Assembly (NCBI RefSeq): GCF_018616375.1
Contig: NZ_JAEQBB010000001.1
Span: 124,001 to 188,000, forward strand
From: Exiguobacterium sp. J17977
Lineage (GTDB): Bacteria; Bacillota; Bacilli; Exiguobacteriales; Exiguobacteriaceae
DNA length: 64,000 nt
Direction: 5' to 3'
Every line of letters begins with the position of its first letter. The first letter of the stretch is position 1. Below the pieces are notes generated by a model. The model saw only the letters and a list, made by a program, of their open reading frames with translations. It was not told the DNA's origin and made no database searches. Positions 50,086 through 61,393 of this stretch are shown here, in pieces. The position numbers and the translations under genes were made by a program.

Positions 50086-50185
50086 GTGGGTTCCACCTTT
50101 GCTAGTTGTTCCTACTGTATACGGCGTCAAGAACATAAAGTTTCGAGCAAACAAAAAGCTGAGCCCAAGTGAACTCAGCATGTGT

Positions 50186-50222
50186 CATTCATTCATTCAT
50201 TCATTCATTCATTCATTCATTC
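50186..50222. repeat. CATT tetranucleotide tandem repeat, nine copies
   Basis: Nine uninterrupted CATT units (GAATG register on the other strand). It covers the last codons and stop of the polysaccharide deacetylase gene and the gap before the M23 gene. On the coding strand every frame meets TGA within a few codons, so copy-number changes barely alter the protein. Confidence 0.97.
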
Positions 50223-53943: not shown

Positions 53944-55443
53944 TTATACATGCTTCCGTTGAAACGCAGAAATCGCTTCATACTCTTCAGCGAGATGACG
54001 GGAGAGCCGGATATAAATCGGCAGCAACTCCCGGTAAATCGTGGTCGCTTCATGATTTGGCGTATGCTCGTGCGTCACTTGTGGCACAGCCGTGAAGTCG
54101 TCGATATCCCCGAACGCGTACTCCCCGAGCATAACCGCACCGAGACACGAACTCTCATGGCTTTCCGGCACGACGACCGGTGTATCGAAGATGTCGGCCA
54201 TCATTTGGCGCCACAAACTCGACTGGGCGAACCCGCCCGTCGCGTGAATCCGGTTCGGCGCGCCCGTCAACTCGTCGAGCGCCAGCATGACCGTATACAA
54301 GTTGAAGATGACGCCTTCGAGTACTGCGCGGATGAAGTGCTCGCGCTTATGGTGGATACTCAACCCGAAGAACGAACCGCGTGCGTTCGAGTCCCAGAGC
54401 GGGGCCCGTTCACCCATCAAATACGGGTGGAACAACAGCCCGTCCGAGCCCGGCTTGACCGTCTCGGCGATGCGCGTCAACACGTCATACGCGTCCATCC
54501 CGAGCCGTTTCGCCGTCTCGACCTCGCTCGCCGCGAACTCGTCGCGGAGCCAGCGGAGGATGATGCCGCCGTTATTGACCGGTCCACCGATGACCCAATG
54601 TTTGTCGGTCAAGGCGTAACAGAAGATACGTCCTTTCGGGTCCTCGACCGGTTCCCGGACGACCGTGCGGATGGCACCGCTCGTCCCGATCGTGACGGCG
54701 ACGACGCCTTGTTCGAACGCCCCGACACCGAGGTTCGACAATACCCCGTCACTCGCCCCGATGACGAGTGGGAAGTCCCAGCCAAGCGTCTCAACCACAT
54801 CAGATTTAAGCGTCAAAATTTCGGTCGTCGGCACGAGCTCGGACAGTTGATTGGGTGTGACCCCGGCGACGTCGAGCGCCTCTGGATCCCAATCGCAGTT
54901 CTTCAAGTTGAACAGCCCGGTCGCCGAGGCAATCGAATGGTCGATGACGAAGCGACCGGTCAGGCGATAGAAGACGTACTCTTTGATGGAAACGAATTTT
55001 ACGGCTCGAGCGAACACGTCCGCATGCTCGGCTTTCAGCCAACGCAGCTTCGACAGCGGCGCCATCGGATGGACAGGTGTGCCGGTGCGCATATGGAGCG
55101 CACTCGCATCGAAGTCGCGTTTGATTTCTTGCGTATACGGGTTGGCCCGGCTGTCGGCCCACGTGATGCTGTGGGTGAGCGGGCGGCCCGACGCATCGAG
55201 CGCAATCAGGCTGTGCATCGCTGAGCTGAATGAGGCGAAGCGAATCGGACCGTCGGCTTTGGCACGGACGGCGGAAATCGCCTCGAGCACGGCCCCGTAG
55301 ATGACGACCGGGTCTTGCTCGGCCGTCTCCGTGTCCGGGGTGAGGAGCGGGTACAACACGTTATGTACCGCGAGTTGTTGCTGGTTATGGAACAGGACGG
55401 CTTTCGTGCTCGTCGTCCCGATATCGACGCCAATCGTGTACAC
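53944..55443 (-). CDS. gntK: Gluconokinase
   Basis: FGGY-family kinase of ~499 residues phosphorylating gluconate to 6-phosphogluconate. Motifs: N-terminal phosphate loop VDIGTTSTKAVLF, WADSRA, GASDGVLSNLGVG, TIGTSGAIR and the C-terminal ATGGFAQSSLWRQMMADIF. Third gene of the leftward gluconate operon, 17 nt after gntP. GTG 55443 is preferred because AGGAAG is 6 nt upstream and it gives a canonical start; ATG 55449 is possible. Confidence 0.94.
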   Translation of the reverse strand: MYTIGVDIGTTSTKAVLFHNQQQLAVHNVLYPLLTPDTETAEQDPVVIYGAVLEAISAVRAKADGPIRFASFSSAMHSLIALDASGRPLTHSITWADSRANPYTQEIKRDFDASALHMRTGTPVHPMAPLSKLRWLKAEHADVFARAVKFVSIKEYVFYRLTGRFVIDHSIASATGLFNLKNCDWDPEALDVAGVTPNQLSELVPTTEILTLKSDVVETLGWDFPLVIGASDGVLSNLGVGAFEQGVVAVTIGTSGAIRTVVREPVEDPKGRIFCYALTDKHWVIGGPVNNGGIILRWLRDEFAASEVETAKRLGMDAYDVLTRIAETVKPGSDGLLFHPYLMGERAPLWDSNARGSFFGLSIHHKREHFIRAVLEGVIFNLYTVMLALDELTGAPNRIHATGGFAQSSLWRQMMADIFDTPVVVPESHESSCLGAVMLGEYAFGDIDDFTAVPQVTHEHTPNHEATTIYRELLPIYIRLSRHLAEEYEAISAFQRKHV

Positions 55444-55460
55444 ACACATCACTTCCTAAC

Positions 55461-56804
55461 TTAAATGATAAACAAGCTGATCAAGAAGACGACCGCGAAG
55501 CCGGTCAATCCAATAATCGTTTCCATGACGGTCCACGACTTGAGCGTGTCTTTCACGTCGAGCCCGAAGTAGCGGTTGACGAGCCAGAAACCTGAGTCGT
55601 TGACGTGCGAGAGTACCGTCGCACCCGAGGCGATCGAGATGACAATTAGACCGAGCGCGGCACCGGTGATATTTTGAAGTTCGAGAAGCGGCGTGATGAG
55701 TCCTGCCGCCGTGACCATCGAGACGGTCGCCGAACCTTGGGCGACACGGACGACGGCCGCAATCAAGAAGGCGAGCACAATCGCCGGGAGTGCTGACCCG
55801 GCCATCATTTCTCCGAGCACGTCACCGACACCCGAGTCGATCAACACTTGTTTGAACACGCCACCGGCACCCGTGACAAGGATGATAATCCCAGCCGGTT
55901 CGAGTGCTTTCGTCGCAATCTCCTGGACTTCGTCACGCGTATAGCCACGACGTGTGCCGAGGAAGATGAACGTGAGCAATGTCGCGAGCGTCAAGGCGAC
56001 GAACGGGTGACCCATGAACGTGAAGAACGTGCGGATGCCGTTGCCTTCTTCAAGCAAGACGGCGGACAACGTGTTGGCGAGAATCAAGACGAGCGGAATC
56101 GAGATGAGCGAGACGATCATCTTGAAGCTCGGCAGTTCTTTCGACGTATCAATCTCTTCGAACTCCATATAGTCCGGGATATTGACGTGAATCTTTTTGG
56201 CGATATACTTCGCAAAGATTGGCCCGGCGAGAATCGTTGCCGGAATCCCGGCGATGACCCCGAACAAGATGACCCATCCGAGCTCGGCCCCGATCAAGTT
56301 GGCGACGGCAATCGGACCCGGCGTCGGCGGGATGAAACTGTGCGTGACGGCGAGACCCGCGAGGAGCGGAATCCCGTAGTACAAGAGCGAGCGGCCCGTC
56401 TTTTTGGCGAGGCCATAAACGATCGGGACGAGAATGATGAAGCCGACGTCGAAGAAGACCGGGACGGCGACGATGAAGCCGGTGAGGGCGAGCGCCCATT
56501 GCGCCTTGTCCTCACCGAACTTATTGACGAGCGTCTGGGCGAGACGTTCCGCACCACCCGAGACTTCTAACATCTTCCCGAACATGGCACCGAGACCGAC
56601 GACGACGGCGACGAAGCCGAGCGTTCCGCCCATCCCGTTCTGAATCGAGGTGATGACGTCCCCGAGCGGCATACCGGCCGCGACCCCGACGAGCAGACTG
56701 ACGAGGAGAAGTGAGACGAAGGCGTGGAGCTTCGTCCGCATGACCAAGAATAAGAGCAAGAAAATCCCTGCGACTGCGATTAAAATGAGTGTCGAACTCG
56801 ACAT
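55461..56804 (-). CDS. gntP: Gluconate permease, GntP family
   Basis: Gluconate:H+ symporter of ~447 residues with about twelve spans. Family strings: GMGGTLGFVAVVVGLGAMFG near residues 58-77, FFDVGFIILVPI, HSFIPPTPGPIAVANLIGAE and HVNDSGFWLVN. Preceded by its own cre site and a terminator after gnd, so it can be regulated separately from gnd. AAAGGGGG before the ATG. Confidence 0.95.
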   Translation of the reverse strand: MSSSTLILIAVAGIFLLLFLVMRTKLHAFVSLLLVSLLVGVAAGMPLGDVITSIQNGMGGTLGFVAVVVGLGAMFGKMLEVSGGAERLAQTLVNKFGEDKAQWALALTGFIVAVPVFFDVGFIILVPIVYGLAKKTGRSLLYYGIPLLAGLAVTHSFIPPTPGPIAVANLIGAELGWVILFGVIAGIPATILAGPIFAKYIAKKIHVNIPDYMEFEEIDTSKELPSFKMIVSLISIPLVLILANTLSAVLLEEGNGIRTFFTFMGHPFVALTLATLLTFIFLGTRRGYTRDEVQEIATKALEPAGIIILVTGAGGVFKQVLIDSGVGDVLGEMMAGSALPAIVLAFLIAAVVRVAQGSATVSMVTAAGLITPLLELQNITGAALGLIVISIASGATVLSHVNDSGFWLVNRYFGLDVKDTLKSWTVMETIIGLTGFAVVFLISLFII

Positions 56805-56828: not shown

Positions 56829-56842
56829 TGTAACCGTTTACA
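56829..56842 (-). promoter_or_regulatory. cre site (CcpA) before gntP
   Basis: TGTAACCGTTTACA fits the TGTAANCGNTNNCA consensus exactly and lies 25 nt before the gntP start. Implies catabolite control by CcpA. Confidence 0.8.
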
Positions 56843-56886: not shown

Positions 56887-57771
<885 letters not shown>

Positions 57772-57788: not shown

Positions 57789-57864
57789 GAATTTTTTTCC
57801 ATCTCTCCACTATAATATCAAATTAAATTCGATTTACAAGTCGAATGACGGAATTTTTTTCGAA
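57789..57864 (-). promoter_or_regulatory. gnd promoter with repeated GAATTTTTTTC elements
   Basis: Leftward promoter TTGTAA/TATTAT (57834-57839 and 57812-57817 on the plus strand, 16-nt spacing). GAATTTTTTTC occurs at 57789-57799 (downstream) and inside CGGAATTTTTTTCGAA at 57849-57864 (upstream). A dyad ATTCGA...TCGAAT (57827-57846) covers the -35. The 16-mer at 57849 is repeated exactly at 60497 by the RpiR gene. Confidence 0.65.
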
Positions 57865-57870
57865 GAACAC

Positions 57871-57905
57871 AAAAAAGCGTCCCGACCTAACGTGTAGGCG
57901 GGACG
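57871..57905 (-). terminator. Terminator of the GGDEF-EAL gene
   Basis: Leftward CGTCCCG/CGGGACG hairpin followed by six T, just before the gnd promoter. Confidence 0.88.
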
Positions 57906-57909
57906 AGGG

Positions 57910-60348
57910 TCAAACACTTTTCTTATATGGATACAGGAACGAGTCGAGTTCTTCGGCCGGCATCGGCTTATTATAATAGTAGCCTTGCGCCTGATTGCAC
58001 TCCTCGGCTTTGAGGAAGGCGACCTGTGCTTTCGTCTCGACGCCTTCGGCGATGACGTTCAACCCGAGCTCGTGTGCCATCCGGATGATCGTCTTGACGA
58101 GAGCGGCGTCCTTCGAGTCGGTCTCGATGTTTTTCGTGAAATGTTGGTCGATTTTCAGCGTGTCGATCGGGAACAGCTTCAAGTAGCTGAGCGACGAGTA
58201 GCCGGTTCCGAAGTCGTCGATTGACAAGTGGACGCCGAGGGCGACGAGCGCCTCCATCGTCTCGATGGCGCTTTGCGCGCTCTGGATGACGGTCTCGGTC
58301 AACTCGAGCTCGAGGTATTCCGGGGCGAGACCGGTCGCCTCGAGCGCCTGGCTGACGATGTCCGGCAAATCTTTTTGTGCGAACTGGAGCGCCGAGATGT
58401 TGACGGCGACGCGGAACGGTGCGATACCCGCGTCCTGCCACGCCTTGTTCTGCCGACACGCCTCGTTCAAGACGTATTCGCCGAGACGGTGGATGCTGCC
58501 GGTCTCTTCGGCAATCGGGATGAACTCGGCCGGCGAGATCATGCCGAGCTCGGGGTGCGTCCAACGCACGAGCGCCTCGACGCCGATGAGCGTCTCCGTC
58601 TCGAGGTGCACTTGCGGCTGATAATGAATCGTAAACTCGCCGCGCCCGATGCCTTTCCGGAGCGCCATCGCGAGCTGTGACTTGCGGGCGACGGACTCGT
58701 TCATCTCGGTCGTGAAGAACTGGAAGCCGTTCTTGCCGTCCTCTTTCGCCCGATACATGGCGATGTCGGCATTTTTCAATAAGTCATCGGCCGTCCGCCC
58801 GTCGGACGGGTAGAGGCTAATCCCAATCGACAGACTCGTGAACACGTCCTCGCCTTCGAGCAGGAACGGTTGGTTCAACGCGTTCGTGATCTCTTGGGCA
58901 CGGTGAGCGGCCAAGTTACTGCCGGTGTTCGGCGACAGGATGACGAACTCGTCCCCGCCGAGACGGGCGAGCGTGTCGCTCTTATTGGTCGTCGTCAACA
59001 GACGGTCCGTCACTTGGCGCAAGAAGACGTCACCTGACGAGTGGCCGAACCGGTCATTGATGACCTTGAAGTTGTCGAGGTCGATATAAAACAGGGAGAA
59101 TGTCGACTCGTTGCCTTGCGCGAGAAGGGCGTCGAGCCGGTCGTTGAACAGGCGTCGGTTCGGCAGGCCGGTCAACGTGTCCAAATAGACGAGGTCGTTG
59201 ATTTGTTCCTCGATTTGTTTCCGTTCACTGATATCGCGGATGATGCTGCTGAAGAAGAGACCCTTCTCCGTCTCCCACGTGCCGAGTGACATCTCGAACG
59301 GGAACTCGGTGCCGTCCTTGCGCAGTCCGACGAGCTCGACCGTGCGGCCGATGACGTTCGCTTCACGGGTCTGACGATAGCGTTTCATGCCTTGTTCGTG
59401 TGCGACTTTAAAGCGCTCGGGCATGATGAGCGTGATCGATTCCCCGAGCACCTCGCTTGCGGCATAACCGAACAGTCGCTCGGCCCCATGATTCCATTGC
59501 ACGATGCGGCGTTTGTCGTCCGCGACGATGATGGCATCGTTCGCCGACTCGATGACGGACTGGAACTTCGTTTCGAGTTCGATCGACTGACGCTCGAGCT
59601 GCTTCTCATTGCGAAGCGAGATGAGCATGAGCACAAACAGCGTCGTGACACTGCCGCCAATCCAAAAGGCGAGGAGCGTGCTGTCCATCGAGAAGCCGGT
59701 CAATGGTTGTGGCGTCGCGAGTGGCGTGAACTCGGCCGCACCCATGCCGATATAGTGCATCCCCGAGACGGCGAGCCCGATCAAGAGAGAGCAGACGAGC
59801 CTCCGCCAATGGAACCGCGACACGTCCGGGAGCGAGAACAACAGATACAGCCCGACGAGCGAGGCGACGAACGCGACGACCGCCGATAACACCCACATGA
59901 ACGGGTCGTATGTCAGGACGGCGTTCATCTGCATCGCTTCCATGCCGACGTAATGCATCGAGACGATACCGATGCTGATGAAGACGGCACTGATGACTAG
60001 ATCGCGCGGTCGTGCCGTCTGCCGACTGACGATGTAAAAGGCGAACCCGGACGAGACGATGGCTGGAATGATGGAGGCGATGACGATACCGATATGGTAG
60101 GATACGTCGGCCTCTAAATGAAAGGCCAACATGCCGATGAAATGCATCGCCCAAATGCCGAGCCCGAGACTGAGGGCTCCGGCGCTCACCCAACGGATGC
60201 GCGACACCCGTTCGGCATATTTGAGCCGACTGCTAATATCGAGTGAGACAAAGGCTGAGAAGACGGCGACGGCGATGGATAACAAGACGAGGGGAAGACT
60301 GTACGTACTATGGAGGTGGTGTTCGATGGGGACCAACCCTTTCTTCAT
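57910..60348 (-). CDS. MHYT-PAS-GGDEF-EAL cyclic-di-GMP protein
   Basis: About 812 residues. Seven membrane helices with three MHYT-type motifs (MHFIGM, MHYVGM, MHYIGM), thought to bind a metal and sense gases such as O2 or NO; PAS ~260-375; GGDEF domain with intact LARLGGDEF; EAL domain with GVEALVRW, DDFGTGYSSL and LKIDQHF. Both halves look catalytically intact, so it could make or degrade c-di-GMP. It lies between the gluconate operon and its RpiR regulator. No ribosome site is clear before ATG 60348, so the start is less certain. Confidence 0.93.
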   Translation of the reverse strand: MKKGLVPIEHHLHSTYSLPLVLLSIAVAVFSAFVSLDISSRLKYAERVSRIRWVSAGALSLGLGIWAMHFIGMLAFHLEADVSYHIGIVIASIIPAIVSSGFAFYIVSRQTARPRDLVISAVFISIGIVSMHYVGMEAMQMNAVLTYDPFMWVLSAVVAFVASLVGLYLLFSLPDVSRFHWRRLVCSLLIGLAVSGMHYIGMGAAEFTPLATPQPLTGFSMDSTLLAFWIGGSVTTLFVLMLISLRNEKQLERQSIELETKFQSVIESANDAIIVADDKRRIVQWNHGAERLFGYAASEVLGESITLIMPERFKVAHEQGMKRYRQTREANVIGRTVELVGLRKDGTEFPFEMSLGTWETEKGLFFSSIIRDISERKQIEEQINDLVYLDTLTGLPNRRLFNDRLDALLAQGNESTFSLFYIDLDNFKVINDRFGHSSGDVFLRQVTDRLLTTTNKSDTLARLGGDEFVILSPNTGSNLAAHRAQEITNALNQPFLLEGEDVFTSLSIGISLYPSDGRTADDLLKNADIAMYRAKEDGKNGFQFFTTEMNESVARKSQLAMALRKGIGRGEFTIHYQPQVHLETETLIGVEALVRWTHPELGMISPAEFIPIAEETGSIHRLGEYVLNEACRQNKAWQDAGIAPFRVAVNISALQFAQKDLPDIVSQALEATGLAPEYLELELTETVIQSAQSAIETMEALVALGVHLSIDDFGTGYSSLSYLKLFPIDTLKIDQHFTKNIETDSKDAALVKTIIRMAHELGLNVIAEGVETKAQVAFLKAEECNQAQGYYYNKPMPAEELDSFLYPYKKSV

Positions 60349-60496
60349 TAAAGTCGGGACAAACGGACGAAAGCTGACAGGTTCTCAAAAATGAGCTTTC
60401 CTAGCTTAGCATATTTGTCTTGACGTGAAGGGAATCTTTTCCACAGTGGGTCAATAGTTTGGCACATTGACAGATAGAACATTCAGTCTTTGATTG

Positions 60497-60512
60497 CGGA
60501 ATTTTTTTCGAA
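60497..60512. promoter_or_regulatory. RpiR operator candidate, copy of the gnd element
   Basis: CGGAATTTTTTTCGAA, identical over 16 nt to 57849-57864, 33 nt before the RpiR start. Confidence 0.65.
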
Positions 60513-60544
60513 ACGGTATCGTAAAAAGAAAAAGGGTGAGACAT

Positions 60545-61393
60545 ATGGAATCGATGAACGGCCTGGCCCGCATCCGTGGTGCCTATACGACACTCGGCAA
60601 GAAAGAGCAACGTATCGCCGATTATATCTTGAAGCAGCCCGAACGCATCATCCATCATACGATTAACCAAGTCGCCGACGACCTCGACGTCGCCGAGTCG
60701 ACCGTATTCCGTTTCTGTCAGCGCGTCGGCTTCAAAGGCTATCAGGCGCTGAAAATTGCGCTCGCCACTGATGTCGTCGCGCCGCTCCAAGACATCCATG
60801 AGGACATCTCGCAAGAAGACACACCGCTTGAGATCGCCGAGAAGATTTTCACGTCGAACGTGAAGACGCTCGAGGCGACGCGGCAAATCTTGGACGGGGC
60901 CTCACTCGACGAGGCTGTCGCGCTTCTCTTGTCGGCCCGCCGCATCGAGTTCTTTGGGAGCGGGGGCTCGGCTGTCATCGCGCTCGACGCGTATCACAAG
61001 TTCGTCCGGAGCGGATTATTCGTCACGGCGAATTTGGAGTCGCATATGCAGCTCATGTCGGCGTCGCAACTGACGACCGACGACGTCGCCGTCCTCATCT
61101 CGCACTCGGGTGCCTCGAAAGACACGCTCGATGTGGCGAAAGTGTTGAACGAGCGTGGCGTCCCGACGATCGCTATCACGAACTACGCGAAGTCGCCGCT
61201 GTCGAAACTGTGTGACGTCGCCCTCTATACCGTGTCGCAAGAGACGGAGTTCCGCTCCGAGGCGCTCGCCTCGCGAATCGCCGAGCTCAGTCTAATAGAC
61301 GCCTTGTTCACCGTCGTCATGATGCGGCGCGGGGAAGAGGGTAGAGAATCGCTCCAAAAAATGCGCGAGGCCATCTCGCTCCGGCGCATGTGA
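60545..61393 (+). CDS. RpiR-family regulator (HTH + SIS)
   Basis: About 282 residues: N-terminal HTH_6 (LGKKEQRIADYILKQPERI, DDLDVAESTVFRFCQRVGFKG) and C-terminal SIS sugar-phosphate domain (IEFFGSGGSAVIALDAY, VLISHSGASKDTLDVAK). Such proteins sense phosphosugars; with gnd-gntP-gntK nearby and matching operator elements, 6-phosphogluconate or a related ester is the likely effector (inference). ATG 60545 follows AGGGTGAG. Confidence 0.93.
   Translation: MESMNGLARIRGAYTTLGKKEQRIADYILKQPERIIHHTINQVADDLDVAESTVFRFCQRVGFKGYQALKIALATDVVAPLQDIHEDISQEDTPLEIAEKIFTSNVKTLEATRQILDGASLDEAVALLLSARRIEFFGSGGSAVIALDAYHKFVRSGLFVTANLESHMQLMSASQLTTDDVAVLISHSGASKDTLDVAKVLNERGVPTIAITNYAKSPLSKLCDVALYTVSQETEFRSEALASRIAELSLIDALFTVVMMRRGEEGRESLQKMREAISLRRM

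Follow-up and report, generated by a model that had tools for sequence, protein, structure and literature searches.

RpiR-family control of sugar-acid catabolism is already known from HexR and RccR, as are gluconate repressors of other families, such as GntR. HexR of Pseudomonas belongs to the RpiR family and represses zwf, edd and gap-1 (PMC5902321, PMC5489143). The Exiguobacterium gluconate locus described here would share with HexR the combination of HTH_6 and SIS domains, a regulator gene that is transcribed divergently from, or located close to, the sugar-acid genes under its control, palindromic operators, and relief by a sugar-acid phosphate. However, HexR has TTGT-N7/8-ACAA as its operator and KDPG as its effector, whereas the sites here follow GAA-W5-TTC in a 31-bp array, and the genome contains no match to edd or eda. 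RccR of Pseudomonas is also alike, in that its KDPG contacts are kept in our protein and that it, too, uses a 15-bp A/T-centred palindrome. Unlike the present regulator, it has pyruvate and glyoxylate genes as its targets, which it reaches through TGTAGT/ACTACA sites of 15 and 28 bp. The sites at our locus are thus of neither the HexR nor the RccR operator type.

Two further systems offer partial parallels. SpNanR of Streptococcus pneumoniae, another RpiR-family protein, recognizes a near-palindrome with a GAA...TTTC core and forms dimers and tetramers, but it activates sialic acid genes and its effector is ManNAc-6-phosphate. GntR of Pseudomonas is likewise a gluconate regulator, with effector-mediated derepression by gluconate and 6-phosphogluconate, but both regulator and operator are different, and here an RpiR protein does the job. 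Among papers on RpiR and gluconate, the scope of our search, we found no earlier account of gnd-gntP-gntK being repressed by an RpiR protein through GAA-W5-TTC sites phased at 31 bp.

A palindromic element before gnd and rpiR

The window, meaning the whole 64,000-nucleotide stretch of DNA analysed, contains a gnd-gntP-gntK operon and a gene for an RpiR/MurR-family regulator (Table 1), whose sequence is nearest to that of E. chiriqhucha. As the sequence-only reading had placed them, the 16-mer CGGAATTTTTTTCGAA occurs exactly at 57849 (57849-57864) and again at 60497, and the shorter GAATTTTTTTC contained in both copies recurs at 57789. No further match to GAATTTTTTTC with one mismatch or fewer exists in the window. 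These three copies were all that the reading had recognized; it missed a fourth, the degenerate AAATTAAATTC that forms O2. Together, the four copies define the consensus GAA-W5-TTC, three lying in the gnd promoter and one before rpiR. O2 is midway between O1 and O3, with the centres exactly 31 bp apart. Since this spacing corresponds to about three helical turns, O1-O3 should lie on the same face of the DNA. With a matrix built from the gnd sites of relatives, the four operators scored 16.4-17.1, whereas nothing else in the window exceeded 11.8. The hexamers of the rpiR promoter are weak matches that fall below a consensus scan, and that promoter is therefore inferred; the sequence upstream of it diverges among Exiguobacterium loci.

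Table 1. Genes, promoters and predicted operators of the gluconate locus (window coordinates)
Feature	Position	Strand	Description
gntK	53944..55452	-	Gluconokinase; TIGR01314 above cut-off
gntP	55461..56804	-	Gluconate:H+ symporter; TIGR00791 above cut-off
gnd/gntZ	56887..57771	-	6-Phosphogluconate dehydrogenase, first gene of the operon; TIGR00872 above cut-off
Operator O3 (proximal)	57789..57799	-	GAAAAAAATTC, centre 57794; just downstream of inferred transcription start
gnd promoter	57812..57839	-	TTGTAA-16-TATTAT, TG before -10; best promoter match (consensus match only)
Operator O2 (middle)	57820..57830	-	GAATTTAATTT, centre 57825; between gnd -35 and -10; matrix score 16.9
Operator O1 (distal)	57851..57861	-	GAAAAAAATTC on gnd strand, centre 57856; upstream of gnd -35, within shared 16-mer
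MHYT-PAS-GGDEF-EAL gene	57910..60348	-	Between both operator regions; outside the switch
Inferred rpiR promoter	60494..60522	+	TTGCGG-17-TATCGT, encloses OR; kept in nearly all Exiguobacterium rpiR loci
Operator OR	60499..60509	+	GAATTTTTTTC, centre 60504; inside inferred rpiR promoter
rpiR	60545..61393	+	RpiR/MurR-family regulator (HTH_6 + SIS), 282 aa; probable repressor

It is useful to ask how much weight the repeat itself can bear. We counted 30 distinct 16-mers that occur more than once in the window, corresponding to about 14 separate repeats. Ten dinucleotide-shuffled versions of the window gave 0-5 each, with a mean of about two (counts halved, as both strands were listed). The earlier statement that a 16-nt match by chance is unlikely was thus too strong, and we rejected the repeat alone as a statistical argument because such repeats are common, about two being expected by chance per 64-kb window. 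The significance of the element comes from its position and its conservation across species rather than from the 16-mer match.

Genome-wide occurrence was assessed by pattern searches. In the 2.94-Mb genome, the 14-mer GGAATTTTTTTCGA is exact at no place other than the two 16-mer sites, and the strict element SGAAWWWWWTTCS occurs in five places, three of them in the window. The motif search that had been proposed as a check therefore did not reveal a scatter of copies across coding regions. Of the other exact copies in the genome, one precedes an arcA-like gene, one is located where a peptidase-like frame begins and one is next to a penicillin-binding-protein-like gene; a copy with one mismatch falls within an argininosuccinate-lyase-like coding frame. 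We do not assign the other exact copies to RpiR as a wider regulon. The copy before the arginine-deiminase-like (arcA-like) gene, GAATTTTTTTCACA at G000:C24:104179-104189 (L087 3180), resembles a Crp/Fnr-type ArcR site.

Conservation and origin of the sites

Across 19 Exiguobacterium genomes, 41 of the 98 exact copies of GAATTTTTTTC sit just before gnd or rpiR. OR is exact in 15 of the 17 genus genomes encoding this RpiR, and O1 is exact before gnd in 12 genus genomes and also in G007, where it is common to rpiR. A strict pattern of sites paired at 31 bp matched gnd promoters only, in 12 genomes, with 0 control matches in all 19. The array does vary: some species have a degenerate O1 or O3 (G004, G009) or a 32-bp interval in place of one of the 31-bp intervals. 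G005 and G018, which have neither this RpiR nor gntP, carry no array before their remaining gnd. Likewise, a second gnd paralogue, 76% identical and located beyond the window at G000:C1:196471-197349, has no operator array in the upstream regions covered (L026, L030, L058). In some relatives, namely E. profundum PHM 11, E. alkaliphilum, V. halodenitrificans and Bacillus sp. JCM 19034, the gntP or gntK matches are partial or split into two frames (L031, L032, L041, L054), which may reflect sequencing error or decay.

The same array is present in 17 other Bacillaceae genomes in which gnd and rpiR are divergent neighbours. With a matrix trained on Exiguobacterium alone, the spacing of site pairs in these genomes peaks at 31 bp, with a value of 1807.7 against a shuffle mean of 8.0 (>200-fold); the genomes from outside the genus were picked for having this RpiR and are not independent draws. 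Virgibacillus (L035, L037) has the full triple of sites, and Aquisalibacillus (L056) has four phased sites with 30-bp spacing, 54-144 bp before rpiR and between gnd and rpiR. In Sinobaca (L057), gntK rather than gnd adjoins rpiR, and the sites lie before gntK, with none before gnd. The sites before the rpiR-adjacent gntP of L050 are weak. One contig titled Roseburia sp. 1XD42-34 (L039) has an rpiR-gnd pair that resembles the one in Virgibacillus and shares 63-69% identity with the window, and the name of that record may be wrong.

The interval between gnd and rpiR varies within the genus. Most genomes have the EAL gene there, G006 and G014 have other DNA, and G007 has nothing. The EAL gene is not part of the switch, since it had no match in G006, G007 or G014 at the threshold used and the operators are kept in all three. 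In G007, gnd and rpiR diverge over about 135 bp, and one distal site is both O1 and the rpiR operator. In G014, the gnd side still has TTGCGGAATTTTTTTCG followed by GGTATC, apparently a leftover of the rpiR promoter. Given these layouts, the two identical 16-mers are best read as copies of one ancestral shared operator that were split apart by inserted genes. The G007 layout itself may be ancestral or may result from a later deletion between repeats.

The regulator and its probable effector

The N-terminal part of the RpiR protein is an HTH_6 domain (PF01418, 84.9 bits over residues 4-77, cut-off 28.3), and the C-terminal part is a SIS domain (PF01380, 79.2 bits) with a phosphosugar pocket whose residues are conserved. 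Its score of 214 bits against the NCBIfam HexR model (PRK11302) is below the cut-off of 296, and the protein would therefore work like HexR without being filed as HexR. The closest solved structure by sequence is RccR (8ju9, E 3.6e-44). Residues S142, H151, R155, H167, S186, S188, S191 and R274 align with the RccR contacts S139, H148, R152, H164, S183, S185, S188 and K270, so that by sequence alignment the KDPG-type pocket (S, H, R, H, S, S, S, K) retains seven identical residues and one K to R change. All gluconate-linked orthologues keep the eight pocket residues, except for S to T/N at the last two serines and the K to R change. By comparison, Paenibacillus relatives and two paralogues from the same genome differ at the first H position and elsewhere.

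The preserved KDPG-sensor pocket, taken with the missing edd and eda, points to 6-phosphogluconate as the likely effector. Made by GntK and consumed by Gnd, this compound is the best candidate that the sequences suggest. In effect, the pocket and the missing Entner-Doudoroff genes predict that a KDPG-type site here serves to sense 6-phosphogluconate. The genome encodes three other RpiR-family relatives. One is beside MurQ-like and PTS EIIBC-like genes and another beside NanE-like and PTS genes, as judged by sequence rather than by family search; from these neighbours, both examined paralogues probably serve other sugars.

A proposed switch for gluconate use and its alternatives

Predicted sites stand both before the gluconate genes and before the regulator's own gene, as expected for the regulator of a gluconate operon. 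We consider it highly probable that GAA-W5-TTC is the operator of the adjacent RpiR, acting as an autoregulated repressor of gnd-gntP-gntK that is relieved by 6-phosphogluconate. The proposal of the sequence-only reading, that the shared element is the operator of an RpiR regulator of gluconate use, is largely borne out at the level of sequence, through the conservation of the sites, their co-presence with RpiR and the way they follow whichever gnt promoter adjoins rpiR. Because this layout is conserved in related bacteria, the array is probably an on/off switch for gluconate use, and the location of two of the four sites within -35/-10 spacers is as expected for a repressor. Tetramers are documented for the RpiR family (PMC12713135, PMC10810197). 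RpiR tetramers would probably occupy two or three of the gnd operators together, excluding RNA polymerase, and OR, within its own inferred promoter, would provide autorepression of rpiR. On induction, gluconate would enter through GntP and be phosphorylated by GntK to 6-phosphogluconate, which would then bind the SIS pocket and release the repressor.

It is possible to assign the same sites differently. They could be sites of a different regulator that recognizes an A/T-centred palindrome and governs both promoters by coincidence, such as Rex, a Crp/Fnr-type ArcR, CcpA or an RpiR paralogue. Rex-type sites (TTGTGAAW4TTCACAA) look similar, and the remote 11-mer copy before the arcA-like gene, in the context TATGAATTTTTTTCACA, resembles a Crp/Fnr-type site. 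However, the core spacer here is 5 rather than 4 and the flanks are C/G rather than TGT/ACA. The operators also contain no cre core, the cre at 56829 being separate, and the neighbours of the examined paralogues point elsewhere. Moreover, the sites track this RpiR through changes of gene order and are absent where it is absent. We regard control by another regulator as very unlikely.

Activation by RpiR itself seems, if anything, slightly less probable. The pneumococcal RpiR-family NanR is an activator, proposed to act through effector-stabilised tetramers that bridge sites (PMC12713135), but a protein bound at O2 or OR, between the -35 and -10, or at O3, beyond the inferred start, would be placed to block polymerase. 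Least likely of all is that O1 is an A-tract UP element and the other copies are chance A/T runs of promoters. O1 is indeed an A-tract and, about 50 bp ahead of the inferred start, it lies in the region from which UP elements act. However, O3 falls downstream of that start and OR within a spacer, the core is bounded on either side by conserved G and C, and the 31-bp spacing recurs in different genera far more strongly than in shuffles.

The preferred reading, repression by the adjacent RpiR, offers an operator code for gluconate control that is precise and testable, in a group of bacteria in which an RpiR protein seems to take the place of GntR, and its fixed 31-bp phasing makes a clean system for how RpiR tetramers bridge sites. 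A broader proposal, for which we find the case evenly balanced, is that this protein represents a lineage-wide RpiR-type sensor of 6-phosphogluconate in Bacillaceae and Exiguobacterium. Such a sensor would repress through cooperative binding of tetramers to three phased operators (as many as four in Aquisalibacillus) with three-turn spacing, and the insertion of other genes between gnd and rpiR would have left a copy of its shared divergent operator on each side.

Finally, a perfect cre (CcpA site), TGTAACCGTTTACA, is located at 56829-56842 between gnd and gntP and is kept in 11 of the 11 Exiguobacterium loci checked. Since it is both perfect and conserved, CcpA probably also acts on the gnd-gntP-gntK operon. 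Elsewhere in the window, positions 50185-50222 hold a short tandem repeat of ATGA units.
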